Assembly: GCA_002762985.1 (NCBI GenBank) | Contig: PCXZ01000025.1 | Span: 1 to 62,535 of the forward strand | Length of the DNA: 62,535 bases | Source: Candidatus Woesearchaeota archaeon CG10_big_fil_rev_8_21_14_0_10_44_13 | GTDB lineage: Archaea; Nanobdellota; Nanobdellia; Woesearchaeales; UBA12501 | Reading direction: 5' to 3' | Shown here: positions 4,795 through 49,029 of the stretch, one piece after another | Layout: every line of letters begins with the position of its first letter | How positions within the stretch are numbered: the stretch's first letter is position 1 | Position numbers and translations under genes: made by a program | The notes under the pieces: generated by a model | Told to the model about the DNA's origin: nothing | What the model saw: only the letters and a program-made list of their open reading frames with translations | Database searches by the model: none

Positions 4795-4811
4795 CACTGG
4801 ACACTGGACAT
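4795..4811 (+). promoter_or_regulatory. Repair-regulon box 1 (upstream of hjc)
   Basis: CACTGGACACTGGACAT, two tandem CACTGGA units plus CAT. Exactly 12 bp later comes TATTTAAA (4824-4831), then ATG 4855 of hjc 31 bp from the first TATA base. The 12-bp spacer ends in AAGG, resembling a BRE. Same arrangement as the boxes before hef, the Cas4-like gene and the 31983-32171 gene. Confidence 0.85.
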
Positions 4812-4854: not shown

Positions 4855-5274
4855 ATGTCAAAAAAGAGCAAAGGTATAGGCGCTGAAAGAGAATTACTGC
4901 ACAAATTCTGGGCCAATGGTTTTGTAGCCATGCGGGCTCCTGCATCCGGCGCGATAAAATACCCCTGCCCTGACCTCATCGTGGGCAACCAGCTCAGGAA
5001 ACTTGTGATAGAATGCAAGACTACGAGCGCAAAAAAGCAGTACATATCCAATGAGCAGATAAGCAACCTCAGGCAATTCAGCGAGATATTCGCAGCAGAG
5101 GCGTGGATTGCTGTCAAATTCGCGAAGGACGGCTGGTTCTTCATCAATCTTGAGGACCTGAAGCAGACTGAAGGCAACAATTATGTCATCTCTGTGGAGA
5201 ATGCCAGGAACAGGGGACTTTCATTCGAAGAGATAATAAAGACAGCAGATTACAGCATATCAAAAACTCAATAG
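4855..5274 (+). CDS. hjc: Holliday junction resolvase Hjc
   Basis: Archaeal four-way-junction endonuclease of 139 residues. The N-terminal KGIGAERELLHKFW matches the conserved Hjc start (catalytic E at 12), the core has DLIVGNQ and the VIECKTT metal motif (PD-(D/E)xK fold), followed by QISNLRQF and AWIAVKF. It resolves recombination intermediates, often with Hef and PCNA. The promoter is leaderless and is preceded by the 17-bp box that also precedes hef, suggesting coordinated control. Its end overlaps the end of the convergent Oxa1-like gene by 7 bp. Confidence 0.95.
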   Translation: MSKKSKGIGAERELLHKFWANGFVAMRAPASGAIKYPCPDLIVGNQLRKLVIECKTTSAKKQYISNEQISNLRQFSEIFAAEAWIAVKFAKDGWFFINLEDLKQTEGNNYVISVENARNRGLSFEEIIKTADYSISKTQ

Positions 5275-26010: not shown

Positions 26011-28230
26011 TTATAGTTTATATTCACCATTAAGGACTTTCTGCAGCTCTTTGGCCTTCTTCTCGCCTATCTTTTCCACTTTCTGCAGCTCTTCCTCAGA
26101 GGCATTCACGAAGTTTTTTATGGATTTGAAATGCCTCAGCAGGGGCTTTGCCAGCGAAGAGCCTATGCCTGGGAAAGAAGAGATGATGTATTCCTGCTGC
26201 TCTTTCAGTGAGAGGGGTTTTGAAGTATGCATGTCAAAGCCTTTCCTTCCTTCATCATGCTCCCTTTTCGCTATTATCGCCAACAGCGCAGCAGTCTCTT
26301 TTGATGTCTTTGTCTGTATTATCGGGACGCCATAGTTCACAGTTATGGCTGCAAGCATGCCTCGTATGGCATTTGGATGTATCTTCCTCATCGAATATAT
26401 GTCCTCGTCGCCTTCGACAACCACCAAGGGCTTATCGTAACATTGTCTTAATTCCTTGACCTGCTGCAGCAATCTTCCGTCTATTATCGAATCGACGAAA
26501 TCAGGCACTTTCTTGTATTCAACGGCGCATCTTGAGCTCAGGATATAATCGCCTGTCTCCATTCGTCTTGTGTTTATCTTTATGCCCAATTCGACCAATT
26601 CCTTCACAACGCCGTTCTTCTCCCTGTCATCTGCATAGATCTCCAGATCGAGTTCCGGCGCAATATATCTGTCTAAGTTTTCCTTCTGCCTCTCCAATGT
26701 GCTGAAGCTTGTCTTCAGGTCTTTAAGGGTCCTGTGCATCCTCTTCTCCTTATGGAATGCGCTCCATTTGAAGCCTTCATCCCTTGTGCCTCTTGTGACA
26801 AGGACAAAGACCTTGCCCTTCTCCAGCCTTCCTGTCCTTCCTCTGCGCTGGATATGCCTTATTGCAGAGGGTATAGGCTCGTAGAATATGACTACATCGA
26901 CTTTCGGGATATCCAGGCCTTCTTCTGCGACTGAAGTGGCTATAAGGATATTGAACTGGCTTGTGCTGAATTCTTCCAGCATCTCTTTCTGCTGCTTCTG
27001 GCTCAATCCTGTGCCGTTCTTCTTTGCCTGGCCTACGAATATCTTCGCCTTGACCCGTTCCATGGAGTTGATCTCCTGCTCGATCTTCGATGCAGTATCC
27101 CTGTACTGCGTGAAGATAATCATCTTTGTGCCGTCGTTCAGCTCTGCAGCGATGAGCCTTTTCAGCTCCTCTGTCTTAGGGTGCTCTATCCCCTGCTCGA
27201 ACAATGCCCTTGTCTTTATGAAAGCGGATTTGAAATTGAGGTCCCTCACAAGATTCTGGACAGCCTTGCTCTTCGTGCTGGATGATTCCTCCTCAACTTT
27301 CTCGAAATATTTGTATAATGGCGTTATGCCCTGCGTCTCGAGAAGCTCTAAAGCGTGCTGCACTTTTATGGCCTCAGAAGCCAATGATATCGATTTCAGG
27401 ACCTCGAATTCCTTATTGCCTTTTGATATCTCAGAATGAAGCAGGCCCTGCAATCTCAACAAGTCAAGTTTCCCTACATTCCTGCCTTTCTCCCTGTTCA
27501 GGTAGCCGTACTTGTTCATCTCTGCAAGCTTTGACTTGGAGCAGTTCTGCAGGAAGACCTGGATCTGCTTCATTTCCTCGGGAAGGTTTACTTTCACCCA
27601 TTCCATTTTGACTTCCTGGATATATGGCTTCACATCAGGGTCGCTGTCTGTCCTTATCTCGACTGCCTCTATATGGAGATTTTTGCAGACTTCGGCTATC
27701 GTCTCTGTCTCAGAGCCAGGGGATGCAGTAAGGCCCAATATCTTTGGGTATTTCGCCAGCCTGTTGTACTGTTTTGCCACGAAGACATATGCGTAATCGC
27801 CTGTTGCCTTATGTGCTTCATCGAATATGACCAAAGAGACTTCCTCAAGGTTTATCCTCCGGCTTATGATGTCGTTTTCTAATCCTTGAGGTGTTGAGAA
27901 GATGATCTTTGCATCCTTCCACAATACTGCCCTTTTCTCAGGGCTTACGAAGCCTGTGAAGACGGCCATGCTGCTTTCGTCTATGTCCATGTATTTCCTG
28001 AAGGTCTCGATATGCTGTTCGACTAATGGCCTTGTAGGCGCAAGAAGGAGCACTTTTGAGTTCGGGAAGTTCTTCAGTCTTTGGGCAGCGAGCATCAGTG
28101 CGATTGTGGTCTTGCCCATGCCTGTCGGAAGGACGACGAGGCAGTTGGCCTTGTTGCAGGTGTCAAATATGGTCTCCTGGTAAAGCCTCGGCTTCATGTC
28201 CTTCAGGTTGTAATTACATGTTTCAAGCAT
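26011..28230 (-). CDS. hef: Hef-type helicase/nuclease (FANCM-XPF family)
   Basis: 739 residues. N-terminal SF2 helicase: LPTGMGKTT (34-42), FDEAHKATGDY (near 136), and helicase C motifs TSVAEEGLDIP and HIQRRGRTGR. The ERCC4 nuclease domain starts near 527 with IYADDREKNG and GDYILSS; two helix-hairpin-helix units (FPGIGSSLAKPLL, VEKIGEKKAKEL) end the protein. The usual ERKxxxD nuclease motif reads EYKKVPD near 570. Hef remodels and cuts stalled forks. TATATAAA at 28254-28261 gives a leaderless ATG at 28230, preceded by the 17-bp box shared with hjc. Confidence 0.94.
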   Translation of the reverse strand: MLETCNYNLKDMKPRLYQETIFDTCNKANCLVVLPTGMGKTTIALMLAAQRLKNFPNSKVLLLAPTRPLVEQHIETFRKYMDIDESSMAVFTGFVSPEKRAVLWKDAKIIFSTPQGLENDIISRRINLEEVSLVIFDEAHKATGDYAYVFVAKQYNRLAKYPKILGLTASPGSETETIAEVCKNLHIEAVEIRTDSDPDVKPYIQEVKMEWVKVNLPEEMKQIQVFLQNCSKSKLAEMNKYGYLNREKGRNVGKLDLLRLQGLLHSEISKGNKEFEVLKSISLASEAIKVQHALELLETQGITPLYKYFEKVEEESSSTKSKAVQNLVRDLNFKSAFIKTRALFEQGIEHPKTEELKRLIAAELNDGTKMIIFTQYRDTASKIEQEINSMERVKAKIFVGQAKKNGTGLSQKQQKEMLEEFSTSQFNILIATSVAEEGLDIPKVDVVIFYEPIPSAIRHIQRRGRTGRLEKGKVFVLVTRGTRDEGFKWSAFHKEKRMHRTLKDLKTSFSTLERQKENLDRYIAPELDLEIYADDREKNGVVKELVELGIKINTRRMETGDYILSSRCAVEYKKVPDFVDSIIDGRLLQQVKELRQCYDKPLVVVEGDEDIYSMRKIHPNAIRGMLAAITVNYGVPIIQTKTSKETAALLAIIAKREHDEGRKGFDMHTSKPLSLKEQQEYIISSFPGIGSSLAKPLLRHFKSIKNFVNASEEELQKVEKIGEKKAKELQKVLNGEYKL

Positions 28231-28273: not shown

Positions 28274-28290
28274 ATGTCCAGTGTCCAGTG
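28274..28290 (-). promoter_or_regulatory. Repair-regulon box 2 (upstream of hef)
   Basis: Minus-strand CACTGGACACTGGACAT, identical to the hjc box. It ends exactly 12 bp before TATATAAA (28261-28254), and ATG 28230 is 31 bp from the first TATA base. The spacer GGCGGCATAAGG resembles the hjc spacer GCCGACACAAGG. Confidence 0.85.
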
Positions 28291-28389: not shown

Positions 28390-28980
28390 ATGAAACTTGC
28401 CATGATCTTAGCAATTCTCCTTATGCTTGTCGGAGGATGCTCGACAGCACAAGACTCACCAATATCGGGAACCCAGGACCTTGTGCTCAATGAACAGGAC
28501 CTTCAGCAGCTGGGGGTTACACGCAATCTTAATGCACAAAATCTTCAGCAGCTTGGGATCACAGAGAATGGGACTAATTGCCACACAGAGGGAAATTATT
28601 CAAATATTGTAGATTCATCACAGGGACAATATAGCATCTGCATTTACCTCATCCCAAGCTTGAATGGCACTGAAGTGATAATCCAGCTGCAGAAATTTGC
28701 AGATTACGAAGCCCTGAACGGCTCATACCAATATGATTCCTCTCACCTGTACAGTGTCGAAGGGCTCATAAGCGAGAATGATTTCGGGGACCAGAGCAGA
28801 TTCCGTGTCAACAATGTGAATGATTACGGCGGCCAGTTCAATGAGCCTGGCATGTATTATTATCATCTCTGGTTCACGAAAGGCCTATACCTTGTCCACA
28901 TCACTTCCAGCGGAAGAAGCAAGGAAGCCAAAGAGTATATTGCGGAGATAGGGCGGATGGTTTTGGAGAAGTTTGGGTGA
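28390..28980 (+). CDS. Secreted lipoprotein of unknown function
   Basis: 196 residues. A signal peptide ends in the lipobox LVGGC (Cys 17), so a membrane-anchored extracytoplasmic lipoprotein is expected. After it, two near repeats (DLQQLGVTRN, NLQQLGITEN) precede an N-glycosylation-rich globular part. No enzyme motif seen. AGGTGAT lies 3 nt before ATG 28390, so the upstream in-frame codons from 28288 are not used. Divergent from hef. Confidence 0.78.
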   Translation: MKLAMILAILLMLVGGCSTAQDSPISGTQDLVLNEQDLQQLGVTRNLNAQNLQQLGITENGTNCHTEGNYSNIVDSSQGQYSICIYLIPSLNGTEVIIQLQKFADYEALNGSYQYDSSHLYSVEGLISENDFGDQSRFRVNNVNDYGGQFNEPGMYYYHLWFTKGLYLVHITSSGRSKEAKEYIAEIGRMVLEKFG

Positions 28981-29000
28981 AGGGTGTACTTGACGGCGAC

Positions 29001-29011
29001 ATGTCCAGTGG
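29001..29011 (-). promoter_or_regulatory. Half-length copy of the repair-regulon box
   Basis: Minus-strand CCACTGGACAT, one unit of the tandem element. Twelve bases further on the minus strand the sequence is TACACCCT, where the other boxes have TATATAAA. No gene start follows, so it looks like a decayed promoter lying between the 3' ends of two convergent genes, at the edge of the restriction island. Confidence 0.5.
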
Positions 29012-29097
29012 ATAAAAAGCTGTTTTTGGGTAAAAATGTCAGAATTTGTAGAAAATAGTTTAGTCGTTCGTGGGAGAATTCAGTATCAATCTTAAAT

Positions 29098-30093
29098 CTA
29101 AAGATTTGAACTGTAGGGTAATGATTTTACATAATTCTCCATAAATTGCCAATCAGGAGCATTATCTTTAGTTACTGGAAGTTTAATTATTGAAGTTGGC
29201 ATTCTTGTTGGTCTCCATTTTCTTCCGTATGCCCATCTAAATTTTTCTAATTCAATTAATGAACAAATAAACATCGCGATATATTCATTCCAATCCCGAT
29301 TTTTCAAATAAAGAACATTTATATCATGGGAACAAGTAAACTCTTTTGTTTGATAAAATGCATAGCCAACAGAACCGTTATTTGAAACTGTCACACAATT
29401 ACCTTTAAAGATTTTCTTATTAATATTATGTTCTGAACTTCGTTCATCTTTATGGGTATTTTCGATATTTTCTATTGTGCAATAACCAGTTATTCCATTA
29501 TGGTATTCTGTTGCTCCAATAAAGGGTATCTCGGCATTTTCAGTAATTTCTGGTTTCTTGTTATAGTAGCCATTTTTTATTTCAAATATTTCATGATAAT
29601 GGAAAGGTTTCCATTTTGATAAATTTAATTTACTCTTCTTTTTTAAGAGTGGTTGTTTATTAAATGGTATTTTGGAAGTGATCTTCTTTATCTTTTTTGG
29701 TATTTCATTTGGTGAAGGAACAAGAATATCTTTAAGAGTACTATTTGCTTGTCTTCCATAATTGTATTTATACTTATTTTTTTCAATTGCAGTACAATAA
29801 TAAATCATTTCTGATTCTGTAAGTTCAATTAATGGGTAAAGGCAAGCGATATGAAATGATGTATAAAAAGGTTTTTCTTGAAAAAATGAAGACAATACAG
29901 AACCCCCTAATGCTACAGTTATAGCATATCCGGGCATAGGGACAATTTCATCTTTAATTTTTATTCTTGATACCATCCCATTATTATTAGACGTTCTTGA
30001 AATAAAGGGGATTCCATTTTCGTCTTCTTCACAGTTAATTAACTCTAAATCAGTCCCATATTTTATATCAAATATTTCGTTTAGTTTTTTCAC
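29098..30093 (-). CDS. Restriction-modification specificity subunit (HsdS-like)
   Basis: 331 residues with two target-recognition half domains that echo each other: first half LNEIFDIKYGTDLELI with GIPFISRTSNNNG, second half YHEIFEIKNGYYNKKP with IPFIGATEYHNGITGY. This is the layout of S subunits that recognise a bipartite DNA site. GTG start overlaps the stop of the methylase gene as TAGTG, so the two are translationally coupled. The gene is AT-rich relative to the chromosome around it, consistent with transfer. Confidence 0.85.
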   Translation of the reverse strand: MKKLNEIFDIKYGTDLELINCEEDENGIPFISRTSNNNGMVSRIKIKDEIVPMPGYAITVALGGSVLSSFFQEKPFYTSFHIACLYPLIELTESEMIYYCTAIEKNKYKYNYGRQANSTLKDILVPSPNEIPKKIKKITSKIPFNKQPLLKKKSKLNLSKWKPFHYHEIFEIKNGYYNKKPEITENAEIPFIGATEYHNGITGYCTIENIENTHKDERSSEHNINKKIFKGNCVTVSNNGSVGYAFYQTKEFTCSHDINVLYLKNRDWNEYIAMFICSLIELEKFRWAYGRKWRPTRMPTSIIKLPVTKDNAPDWQFMENYVKSLPYSSNL

Positions 30094-31931
30094 TACTGCA
30101 CCTTATTTAAAAATTTAAACGCGATATAGTCATTCATCTTCCTTTCAAAATCCAAATCAGAAAGTGTTGAATAATCAGTTTCCATATATGCTTCAGCACA
30201 CCACTCGTCTATCTCAGTTACTTCAGATTTAATTGATAAACCAGAAATTTCATCTAAATTATTATATGCTTTTATCCATCTGTCTTTTATTTCAGCCCAT
30301 TTTGTTCTTGCATCAATTCGGCCTTTATGTTTGCGCTTTTCAAATCCGTCATTTTTAAAATATCCGAACCATGTCTTTTTATTTTCGTTCTTTTCTCCCG
30401 CCCTAAAAACCATAATTGTAGTTACAACCCCCACAGGATAAAATAAGTCGTCAGGCATTGATAAGGAGGCGATTAATCTATGTCTTTCCAAAATTCTTTT
30501 TTTGATAGTAATTAATTCCTTTTCATTTTTAATTGCACAACTCATTTGAACAATAGCAACTACAATTCCATTTTGGAGTGCAACTACATTTAAAGCATGT
30601 TCTATAAACCGCATTTGTCCAGCATTTCCAACATCATATGGGGGATTTAAAAACGCAACATTAGGTTTATGGTTTTTCATTATTAATTTTTCTAAACTAA
30701 AACAATCGCCACAATAAATATTTGATTTTCCATCACCTCGCATCATCATATTTGAACAAGCATAAGTAAACATAGACGGACGTAACTCTACACCAATTAA
30801 TTGATGAGATTTTATTGCTAATTTTTTGCTTTCTTTATTTCCTGCCAGTTTAATCATTCGTTTCATTCCAGCAATCAAAAATCCACCCGTGCCACAACAA
30901 GGATCATATAATACACTATTTTCATTAATTTTTGCTAAATCGCAAAATAAATCAGTTATATGAAATGGGGTTAAAACTAAACCTTGACTTTGCTCACTTC
31001 CTGCATATCGGATAAATTCGGTATAAAAACGACCTAGAACATCAAATCCACTTTGTTCCATATCAATGAGTGGGTAAACATTTTCATGAATGTAATTTAT
31101 AATCTCTTTATTAATCGCAATCGAATCTTTATATTCTTTTTCATCTTTATGTTTTATTTTATTTTCTTTAAACAAAGGTTCATTCAATATTTTATTATAT
31201 TCTCCGATCATTTCATTTTTACATTTTACATTATGTTTAGAAAGAACATTCTCAATTGCAGATAACATTGATTTAGCAAGAGAGATTGATGAATTATATT
31301 TAGAATAACTACTTCTAAAAGGGTCGTCAAGCAATGATACTAAAATTGCACTAATAATAGTACATCTTGTTGTTTCGGTAACAGAATATGATTGATACAA
31401 TTCATTTAGATATATTGCTTTTTGAATTATATCTACATTCTTTAAGTTTTCAGCAAATTGAGTATTGTTAAATAGTTTTAAATATTCATTGATAGAACAT
31501 AAACTCTTATCTTCTTTAATTTCTTTGTAGGTTTTATTTTGCTTTCTAAAAATAAAATGTGATACTAACATCTCTTGAGATGTTTCTCCACTCACTGCGA
31601 TTGCAATTACATTGAAACTTTCAGACAATTTTTTGGCATAATGAAGAACACCATCAACTGCATATTCTTTTGGATTATTTAATTGTTTACTGCGATGATA
31701 AATTGGAGATGCTTTACATTCCACTATAATTAAATAATCCATATCCCCTGAAGGAAATGTAATTAAAAATTCTGGTTTTCCCACACCATTTCCTGATTTA
31801 GAAGCCGACTGTAAAATATCATTAATTCTTTTACTAGATGATTTTTGTTCCTCTAATTTGAGAATGTTAGATAATGGATCCTTTTTAAAATGATTTCTTA
31901 CAAACTCTTCAGTTATCCTTTCATTAGACAT
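30093..31931 (-). CDS. Fused restriction nuclease/N6-adenine methyltransferase
   Basis: 612 residues. The N-terminal region has a PD-(D/E)xK-like nuclease signature: KPEFLITFPSGDMDYLIIV followed by ECK at 71-73. The methyltransferase half carries motif I YDPCCGTGGFLIAG near 345 and the catalytic FLNPPYD near 429, with an HsdM-like helical part between. Together with the separate S subunit this is a two-gene BcgI-like (type IIB/IIG) system without an HsdR translocase. AGAGGT precedes ATG 31931, as for a gene inside an operon; the 31983-32171 gene lies upstream under a repair-type box. AT-rich. Confidence 0.87.
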   Translation of the reverse strand: MSNERITEEFVRNHFKKDPLSNILKLEEQKSSSKRINDILQSASKSGNGVGKPEFLITFPSGDMDYLIIVECKASPIYHRSKQLNNPKEYAVDGVLHYAKKLSESFNVIAIAVSGETSQEMLVSHFIFRKQNKTYKEIKEDKSLCSINEYLKLFNNTQFAENLKNVDIIQKAIYLNELYQSYSVTETTRCTIISAILVSLLDDPFRSSYSKYNSSISLAKSMLSAIENVLSKHNVKCKNEMIGEYNKILNEPLFKENKIKHKDEKEYKDSIAINKEIINYIHENVYPLIDMEQSGFDVLGRFYTEFIRYAGSEQSQGLVLTPFHITDLFCDLAKINENSVLYDPCCGTGGFLIAGMKRMIKLAGNKESKKLAIKSHQLIGVELRPSMFTYACSNMMMRGDGKSNIYCGDCFSLEKLIMKNHKPNVAFLNPPYDVGNAGQMRFIEHALNVVALQNGIVVAIVQMSCAIKNEKELITIKKRILERHRLIASLSMPDDLFYPVGVVTTIMVFRAGEKNENKKTWFGYFKNDGFEKRKHKGRIDARTKWAEIKDRWIKAYNNLDEISGLSIKSEVTEIDEWCAEAYMETDYSTLSDLDFERKMNDYIAFKFLNKVQ

Positions 31932-31982
31932 TTTTTACCTCTTTATTTATAGATGGGGACATCTCTTAATAAATATTACTGT

Positions 31983-32171
31983 TTATTTTCTGGTTGCAAT
32001 AAATGTAACAACCGCCAGGATAACAAAACATACAATTCCTGCAAACAATCGTTTAAAGAAACCTGGGACTCCTAATGCTTGTGCGAAGCTATCACTAAAC
32101 CAAAATAGTACTCCAAATATTCCTAAAAATAAATCAACGATTATTGCGGTGCTTATTTTCATATCAAACAT
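31983..32171 (-). CDS. Small two-helix membrane protein heading the RM operon
   Basis: 62 residues with two hydrophobic helices (IIVDLFLGIFGVLFWF and LFAGIVCFVILAVVTFIAT) joined by a short loop; function unknown. TATATAAA at 32196-32203 gives a leaderless ATG at 32171, and the 17-bp repair-regulon box sits 12 bp further upstream. The methylase gene follows after 51 bp with its own ribosome binding site but no obvious TATA box, so the small protein and RM genes probably form one transcript. Confidence 0.75.
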   Translation of the reverse strand: MFDMKISTAIIVDLFLGIFGVLFWFSDSFAQALGVPGFFKRLFAGIVCFVILAVVTFIATRK

Positions 32172-32215
32172 TTTATTTATGAGTGGGTTTAGTAGTTTAT
32201 ATACTTTATGGGTAT

Positions 32216-32232
32216 ATGTCCAGTGTCCAGTG
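32216..32232 (-). promoter_or_regulatory. Repair-regulon box 3 (upstream of the RM operon)
   Basis: Minus-strand CACTGGACACTGGACAT, identical to the hjc and hef boxes. The spacer to TATATAAA (32203-32196) is again exactly 12 bp (ATACCCATAAAG), and ATG 32171 is 32 bp from the first TATA base. Confidence 0.85.
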
Positions 32233-32275
32233 GGGGGAGGGGGGAAGTTGGGGTGAAGAGGGTAGTTGAGGGGGA
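32232..32275 (+). other. G-quadruplex-capable tract
   Basis: Plus strand holds five guanine runs: G6 at 32232, G6 at 32239, G4 at 32250, G3 at 32260 and G5 near 32270, with loops of 1, 5, 6 and 7 nt. This satisfies the usual quadruplex pattern. It begins at the upstream edge of repair box 3. Confidence 0.6.
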
Positions 32276-32478
32276 TGGTGGTGGTTCATGAAATTTTTCA
32301 TTCCTCATCTTTTGTTGTGATGATTGATTGCACTGCACTCTCTTACACTTCGTTTCAATCAAGTCGGCTAACGGCGTGTATATATTAAATACAATTGAGT
32401 TTGAGTTTTTTAACTAAATAAAAGAAGTCATCTTCAGTAAAAACATTTATATATCAATCAAATTTAACTTGGATTAAT

Positions 32479-33381
32479 ATGACAATCCCCGATTATCAAA
32501 CATTAATGCTCCCTCTGTTAAAAAATATTTCTGATGGAATGGAGCATAAAACTAAAGAGGTTGTTAATTCTTTATCTAATGAATACCATTTAACTGAAGA
32601 AGAGAAAAGAGAATTATTACCTTCAGGTCAACAACCAATAATAGATAACCGTATTGGATGGGCAAGAACATATCTACTTAAGGCAGGGTTATTGTCTTCT
32701 CCAAGAAGAGGATATATTAAGATAACTGAAAAAGGCTTAGAAGTATTAAAACAAAAGCCAAACAGAGTTGATATTAAATTTCTTGAGAAATTTCCTGAAT
32801 TTATAGAGTTTAGAACAATAAAAAAAGAAACTTCTAAGGAAACTGTTAAAGACAAGGAAGAGGTTGAAGATGTAACCCCTGATGAATTGATGGAAAAGGG
32901 GTATAATTCTATCAATGCAAGTTTGACCCAGGAATTACTGGAGAAGTTAAGAAATATTGATCCCTATTTTTTCGAAGATGTTGTGGGTGAATTACTTACT
33001 GTTATGGGATATGGAAGATTTGAAGCTACGCCTGGTTCTGGAGATGAAGGAATTGATGGTATAGTCTACCAAGATAAATTAGGATTAGATAAAATATTTT
33101 TTCAGGCAAAAAGGTATGGTGAAGGAAACTCTGTTTCTGCAAGAGATGTAAGAGATTTTGTTGGAACATTAGATTTACATGGAGTAAGTAAAGGAATTTT
33201 TATTACAACTTCTCGATTTCCAAAAGACACAAGTGATATTCTTAAAAAAACACCTAAAAACATAATCTTGATAGATGGACCTAAACTTGCAAAATTAATG
33301 ATTGAGCACGATGTTGGGGTAAGCACACAAAAAACGTATAAAATTAAAAAAATAGATACTGACTTCTTCCCAGAGGAATAA
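32479..33381 (+). CDS. mrr: Mrr-like type IV restriction endonuclease
   Basis: 300 residues. An N-terminal winged-helix Mrr_N part (IGWARTYLLKAGLLSSPRRG, then ITEKGLEVLK) is followed by the catalytic domain with FFEDVVGELLTVMGYG, GSGDEGIDG near 186 and the FFQAKRY motif near 208 (Q in place of E, as in many Mrr enzymes). Mrr enzymes cut methylated foreign DNA. TTTATATA at 32446-32453 suggests a nearly leaderless start. The gene is AT-rich and sits beside, but divergent from, the RM operon. Confidence 0.9.
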   Translation: MTIPDYQTLMLPLLKNISDGMEHKTKEVVNSLSNEYHLTEEEKRELLPSGQQPIIDNRIGWARTYLLKAGLLSSPRRGYIKITEKGLEVLKQKPNRVDIKFLEKFPEFIEFRTIKKETSKETVKDKEEVEDVTPDELMEKGYNSINASLTQELLEKLRNIDPYFFEDVVGELLTVMGYGRFEATPGSGDEGIDGIVYQDKLGLDKIFFQAKRYGEGNSVSARDVRDFVGTLDLHGVSKGIFITTSRFPKDTSDILKKTPKNIILIDGPKLAKLMIEHDVGVSTQKTYKIKKIDTDFFPEE

Positions 33382-48094: not shown

Positions 48095-48970
48095 TTATCT
48101 GGCCTTAGGCAGGGCTTCTAACCTTTCTTTGAGGAAAACCTCATCATAACAGTTTTCTTTCAGGCCGCAGGCTGAACATTTGTTCTCATTGCCGCAGAAA
48201 TCCGGCAGTTTGCCTGAGTTCAGCATTGCATTGGTCTTTGAAACGAGCTCTTTTATCTCTTTTTCAGCGAAAGGGTTTAGGGTTATGTTCACGACCTTGT
48301 CTGAATCAAGGTATATTATCTTCCCTTCTTTGACATCCTTTGCTGAACTAGACCCGTCCATCCGCTCAGAAAGCATCAGGAGGTATGCGAGAAGCTGTAT
48401 CCTGTGGGACGGCCATGCTCCTTCATTGGGGCTTTTCCCTGTCTTAAGCTCTATCGGGACAACAATATCATCATAGACCTCGACCTGGTCTATCCTGCCT
48501 TTCAGGCCGAGATTCTCTGACATTATGTTAAGCTCTGATACCAGCTTCGGCGTCAGTTTCGCCCACAATTCCTCGCCTGAAAGGCCTGTTCTTTCCATGA
48601 AACTAAAGACATTATTTGCGCGCTTATCCGCCTCCTTCACAATCAAAGGCCAATTCTTCTTGAATATCTCTTTGGGCTCTAGCTTCAGGTCTGAAAGTAT
48701 CCTGCCGTATTTGCCTATTGTCTTCATGAGCAGCTCAGAATATTCTTTCCTGTAAATTTCCAATACATCCTCGAATGATGATCTTTCCTTTATGCCTTTC
48801 ACGATCCTCTCTTCAATATTGTTTATGTATTCATAGACCTCGTGCCTGAGTCCTCCAAGGACCAATGTCTCTTTTGGCGGCTCGACGATCCGGAGGACGC
48901 ATTCAAGGTAGAGCTTTCTTGCACAGTAGAGATAGCTCGAAAGAAATGTCACGCTTATGGTCTTTCCCAT
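48095..48970 (-). CDS. Cas4/RecB-family nuclease with iron-sulfur cysteines
   Basis: 291 residues. Cas4-like layout: N-terminal SYLYCARKLYLE (first Cys), a His in GLRHEVYEY, nuclease motifs LKGRIDQVEV (D) and VPIELKTGK (ExK), QLLAYLLML, and a C-terminal Cys cluster CGNENKCSACGLKENC. Such enzymes make 3' overhangs and are used in repair or CRISPR adaptation. There is no CRISPR array or other cas gene in the window, and the promoter carries the box shared with hjc and hef, so repair is favoured. Leaderless ATG at 48970, TATATAAA at 48993-49000. Confidence 0.88.
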   Translation of the reverse strand: MGKTISVTFLSSYLYCARKLYLECVLRIVEPPKETLVLGGLRHEVYEYINNIEERIVKGIKERSSFEDVLEIYRKEYSELLMKTIGKYGRILSDLKLEPKEIFKKNWPLIVKEADKRANNVFSFMERTGLSGEELWAKLTPKLVSELNIMSENLGLKGRIDQVEVYDDIVVPIELKTGKSPNEGAWPSHRIQLLAYLLMLSERMDGSSSAKDVKEGKIIYLDSDKVVNITLNPFAEKEIKELVSKTNAMLNSGKLPDFCGNENKCSACGLKENCYDEVFLKERLEALPKAR

Positions 48971-49012: not shown

Positions 49013-49029
49013 ATGTCCAGTGGCCAGTG
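49013..49029 (-). promoter_or_regulatory. Repair-regulon box 4 (upstream of Cas4-like nuclease)
   Basis: Minus-strand CACTGGCCACTGGACAT, one mismatch from the other three boxes. Exactly 12 bp separate it from TATATAAA (49000-48993), and ATG 48970 is 30 bp from the first TATA base. The box begins 3 bp beyond the stop codon of the upstream HEAT-like gene. Confidence 0.85.

Follow-up and report, generated by a model that had tools for sequence, protein, structure and literature searches.

A restriction-modification operon of probable bacterial origin behind a putative SOS-like repair promoter in a woesearchaeal archaeon

The window analyzed here is a 62,535-nucleotide stretch of contig PCXZ01000025.1 from Candidatus Woesearchaeota archaeon CG10_big_fil_rev_8_21_14_0_10_44_13 (genome G000). 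On its minus strand, a restriction-modification (RM) gene pair follows the gene of a small membrane protein. The first RM gene (30093 to 31931) encodes a fused restriction-methyltransferase, in which the PADLOC model REase_MTase_IIG matches residues 30 to 609 (2.1e-98), Pfam N6_Mtase matches at 2e-27, and the motifs PD-ExK (...DYLIIVECK), DPCCGTGGF, and NPPY can be read in the protein. The predicted nuclease and N6-methylase share one polypeptide, as in type IIG enzymes, and the adjoining gene (29098 to 30093, minus strand) encodes a specificity (S) subunit with two stretches matching Methylase_S (1.5e-28). The S gene overlaps the RM stop through the common letters TAGTG at 30095 to 30091, and the fused gene begins 51 bp after the membrane protein gene (gap at 31932 to 31982, minus strand), with an AGAGGT ribosome site ahead of its ATG; on both points the initial annotation was accurate. 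That annotation saw no evident TATA box ahead of the RM gene, which is nearly right: a TATA-like sequence, AATATTTATTAAGA, does lie in the gap at 31977 to 31964, and its score of 4.4 is far under those of the promoters discussed below. The pair resembles BcgI-like type IIG systems, which have a fused nuclease-methylase and a separate S protein. The kind of enzyme is ordinary; what sets this RM system apart is the promoter that it uses.

Several features mark the surroundings of the RM island. A stretch, ATAGTTTAGTCGTTCRTGRGRGAAATTC, is shared by the window (29053 to 29083) and two relatives (G261:C6:223627-223647 and G250:C204:810-830); in two genomes it lies beside the RM genes, and it is possibly the end of a mobile element. 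A 35-bp match between 28965 to 28999 and 32241 to 32275 was considered as a pair of direct repeats flanking the cassette and was rejected as not significant, because its score of 21 is exceeded by shuffled sequences, which reach 23. Just beyond the 3' end of the island, a lone half box, CACTGGACAT, without a TATA box (29001 to 29010, minus strand) is perhaps a relic. On the other side, outside the operon, a divergent gene (32479 to 33381, plus strand) encodes a type IV Mrr endonuclease with Mrr_N and Mrr_cat domains; it has its own TATA 14-mer at 32442 (score, 8.1) and no box.

The first gene of the operon (31983 to 32171, minus strand) encodes a 62-residue protein with two hydrophobic segments (19-residue means of 2.17 and 2.76). 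Homologues were found in G101 (93% identical, family f21), G054 (60%), and G166 (58%). The dN/dS ratio between G000 and G101 is 0.03, which indicates strong purifying selection. In G101, two CACTGGAC repeats, more widely spaced than in the window, precede the gene, with the proximal repeat 10 bp from a TATA box, and the gene is followed by a small open reading frame (ORF), a C5/Eco57I methylase gene, and a 395-residue ORF. No box precedes the homologues in G054 and G166. The conservation, the dN/dS ratio, and the G101 operon argue that the gene is real and stands first in two unrelated, predicted methylase or RM operons.

Ahead of this gene lies a tandem 7-bp direct repeat, CACTGGACACTGGACAT (32216 to 32232, minus strand), identical to the box found elsewhere in the genome. 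A search with ATGTCCAGTG, allowing up to one mismatch, returned 9 matches against 2.98 expected, a number equaled in none of 100 shuffles. Ten base pairs downstream of the 15-mer box is a BRE/TATA 14-mer, AAAGTATATAAACT (32194 to 32207, minus strand). The third box that the initial annotation had placed before a two-helix protein of 62 residues thus has a strong TATA box beside it and a conserved gene behind it. From the end of the box to the ATG is 46 nucleotides, a distance that suggests a leaderless-type transcript.

We gathered 146 distinct boxes from relatives for promoter analysis. In 142 of them, a spacing of 10 or 12 bp separates the box from the start of the best-scoring TATA 14-mer (consensus, GAGGTATATAAACG). 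AAAGTATATAAACT scores 15.2 with the TATA position weight matrix (PWM), compared with a median of 14.8 for the 146 box promoters; these scores are not independent, since the matrix was trained on the same 146 sites, and the confinement of the TATA box to two spacings remains informative. The start codon often lies 44 to 46 nucleotides from the end of the box, which would fit leaderless or nearly leaderless mRNAs. The exact motif occurred in 88 of 199 genomes of the same order and in 1 of 172 from other orders in a sample of the phylum (the split was counted from listed kinship), a distribution that points to an order-specific promoter element. A less strict half-box plus TATA pattern recovered all six known sites and one more in the window's own genome, and many sites, against four reversed-control matches, in eight genomes. 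These matches suggest that where full boxes are scarce in a genome, half or degenerate boxes serve instead. No published account of the box was found in the open-licence papers searched. A box with a TATA box also precedes a 206-residue ORF on a 116-kb viral contig (L294:224-260, IMGVR_UViG_3300035698_013589), and the virus may therefore share the same switch.

Which genes use the box in the window's genome? The 1.5-Mb genome holds five exact 15-mers and one variant that differs at a single base; the reversed control gave close to 0. Besides the RM operon, exact boxes precede hjc, hef, the radA operon, and a pair of small ORFs. The hjc box (4795 to 4811, plus strand) lies before hjc at 4855 to 5274 (Hjc, NF040854, 1.1e-40). 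The hef box (28274 to 28290, minus strand; exact 15-mer at 28276 to 28290) lies before hef at 26011 to 28230 (Hef nuclease, NF010337, 8.7e-274), and the hef and RM promoters match at 83% over 47 nucleotides. The variant, CACTGGCCACTGGACAT (49013 to 49029, minus strand; 15-mer at 49015), precedes a gene at 48095 to 48970 for a Cas4/Dna2-like nuclease (Cas4-type match, 1.2e-26). The remaining exact boxes are on other contigs: on C3, the box is followed by a LAGLIDADG ORF, which intervenes (L010:2722-5119) before the genes for a 94-residue protein and radA; on C24, it is followed by two small ORFs and a Sua5 gene. The Sua5-linked pair (L011:3025-3039) is conserved behind boxes in about ten relatives and consists of an ORF of about 37 to 45 residues with TIxxLFxxQIKxLT and an acidic ORF of about 50 residues ending in EEAFMxGYLxx. 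On contig C35, a box-like site (L014:85-284) precedes a 37-residue remnant with SPPYNI, a DNA-methylase-like motif; a Pfam search of the remnant returned no match, so it is only suggestive as a methylase. The initial annotation placed the RM system under the same control as hjc and hef, and the presence of the same exact box supports this at the level of sequence.

The products of the first genes after boxes include Hef, Cas4-like nucleases, XerA-type recombinases, BRO-N/DinD proteins, RNase H-like nucleases, MCM, RadC, RadA with its 94-residue partner, UvrB, DUF763, and a radical-SAM/HHH protein. The putative operator keeps its place in the promoter ahead of several repair genes that are not linked to one another, as in a regulon, and the gene set looks SOS-like. 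From gene content, we infer that these genes would be induced by damage. As in the bacterial SOS regulon (LexA/RecA), copies of a short operator are scattered ahead of genes for recombinases, resolvases, nucleases, DinD, and UvrB. The box is no LexA box, however: it is a tandem 7-bp direct repeat rather than a palindrome, and it lies upstream of an archaeal TATA box. We considered as its regulator a single-copy, winged-helix-like family of 155 residues (alignment A2), present in 82 of 98 relatives (L064, L047, L055, L149, and others), which has neither a Pfam match nor a PDB relative. The family is box-controlled in several families and box free in many, and it is missing from G000 and G005, both of which have boxes; it was rejected as the regulator and is a regulon member only.

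Are RM genes found behind boxes elsewhere, as the initial annotation proposed to check? A IIG-model search of 353 genomes across the order gave matches in nine genomes. All six close homologues with visible upstream DNA, the window's included, have a box (four full, two half or degenerate), which in the copies of relatives is immediately upstream, where the cut for a close homologue was chosen after the results were seen. Full boxes precede the IIG genes of G155 (TATA spacing, 10) and G127 (weak TATA) and a truncated IIG remnant in G047; G261 has a half box (spacing, 12), and G250 has a degenerate box, CACTGGACAACTAGAC (spacing, 10). The surroundings of the boxed copies differ between genomes. 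More distant IIG copies (the second copy of G261, G264, G111, and G188) have no box within the DNA seen, and nearly all of the weaker HsdM-like matches are likewise without one in the DNA seen. Other kinds of RM or methylase genes also lie behind boxes: besides the C5/Eco57I operon of G101, the box of G076 is followed by all the genes of a type I operon (HsdR, RHH-like ORF, HsdS, BRO-like gene, and HsdM, in that order) and that of G064 by a small ORF and an N6/N4 methylase.

The window's RM protein has its closest relatives in bacteria (Flavobacteriales, 74%; Prevotellaceae, 69 to 72%). In a maximum-likelihood (ML) tree, it groups with a Flavobacteriales copy (97/99), whereas the boxed RMs of G155, G261, G127, and G250 form a separate clade (100/100). 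This placement with Bacteroidota and the GC content of the island (27 to 33%, compared with about 45%) agree with the proposal of an AT-rich, acquired system. The box-RM link required two changes on the tree, and a single origin was seen in none of 200 bootstrap trees. The tree, which sets the window's RM among Bacteroidota and apart from the clade of the other boxed archaeal copies, indicates at least two origins of the link, in two distinct RM lineages. The box as a passenger brought along with a bacterial RM was considered and rejected, as the Bacteroidota homologues have neither a box nor the 62-residue gene upstream.

Our data suggest that an acquired RM system probably sits behind an SOS-like repair-regulon promoter (32194 to 32232), where it is most likely cotranscribed with the gene for the 62-residue protein. 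A putative factor would bind the tandem CACTGGN repeat that directly precedes BRE/TATA and would control the radA operon, hjc, hef, the Cas4-like nuclease, and others, whose common element is seen as sequence; the signal for the regulon would be DNA damage. The location of the box upstream of the TATA box favors activation. The type IIG pair was, according to the tree, acquired from a Bacteroidota-like source and now sits behind the promoter's first gene. The 62-residue gene and the RM gene lie 51 bp apart with no second TATA box of good quality between them, the S start overlaps, and RM genes of relatives appear to be box driven, all of which favors joint transcription. The cell would then raise restriction-modification together with recombination repair. 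Several observations count against this reading: the poor TATA box at the G127 RM box, the half or degenerate boxes of G261 and G250, the more distant IIG copies and nearly all weaker HsdM-like matches, which have no box nearby, and the 62-residue gene without a box in G054 and G166.

Could the box promoter serve the 62-residue gene only, with the RM genes placed behind it incidentally and transcribed from their own promoter in the 51-bp gap? AATATTTATTAAGA lies 33 to 46 nucleotides ahead of the RM ATG, a distance workable with the AGAGGT site, and the 62-residue gene is found elsewhere without RM genes. We nevertheless consider this unlikely, since the gap TATA box scores 4.4, a level that occurs by chance about 2.9 times per kilobase in the RM coding DNA, compared with 15.2 for the box promoter, and in relatives the box appears to drive RM genes directly and the box with the 62-residue gene recurs ahead of another RM operon. 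Alternatively, the box could give strong expression that is constitutive or tied to growth, instead of responding to DNA damage, given that MCM, XerA, and Sua5-linked genes also lie behind boxes. This seems rather unlikely to us: the box genes are concentrated on RadA, Hef, Hjc, UvrB, DinD, RadC, and nucleases, the box occurs on few promoters per genome, and genes for ribosomal proteins or metabolism do not stand out among them.

The joining of RM genes to boxes might also reflect insertion bias: mobile genes (homing endonucleases, integrases, and RM) would land preferentially at box promoters, with no regulatory benefit. Boxes are followed directly by genes for at least 11 LAGLIDADG (homing endonuclease) proteins, including many in relatives, and the RM genes are patchy and acquired. 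The RM contexts vary, however, and are away from native repair-gene promoters; the RM genes of relatives have their own box at regulon spacing; and the 62-residue gene is under strong purifying selection. We regard insertion bias as an improbable explanation. An extension of the repair-promoter reading, which we think quite improbable, is that the box, the membrane protein, and the RM genes make up a mobile defense module triggered by damage. If so, healthy cells would show little restriction; DNA breaks would raise it along with the repair genes, the enzyme might then cut an invader or the cell's own genome if under-methylated, and the membrane protein would be a working part.

Damage-responsive promoters are known from other archaea. 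The accessible text of PMC2556686 describes a Halobacterium UV-B motif, TTTCACTTTCA, about 50 bases ahead of the start codon and upstream of the TATA box in the radA1 promoter. Like the box, it is short and contains an internal direct repeat; it differs in sequence and is described there for four genes, in halophiles, with no RM genes reported under it in that text. A Sulfolobales hexanucleotide motif marks a damage-responsive promoter (PMC5817253), and Orc1-2 is a damage regulator (PMC9738581). The Sulfolobales promoters share with ours a nonpalindromic element upstream of the core promoter, although their element is a single hexanucleotide from another phylum (PMC5817253). No damage regulon was found for these small, DPANN-type archaea in the open-licence papers searched. 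The box offers a sequence handle on a candidate damage regulon across 88 sampled genomes, one to which restriction genes from different sources appear to have been joined repeatedly. It also singles out an uncharacterized membrane protein of 62 residues that may be a partner of the RM system, and it makes a coupling of defense to DNA damage in archaea directly testable.
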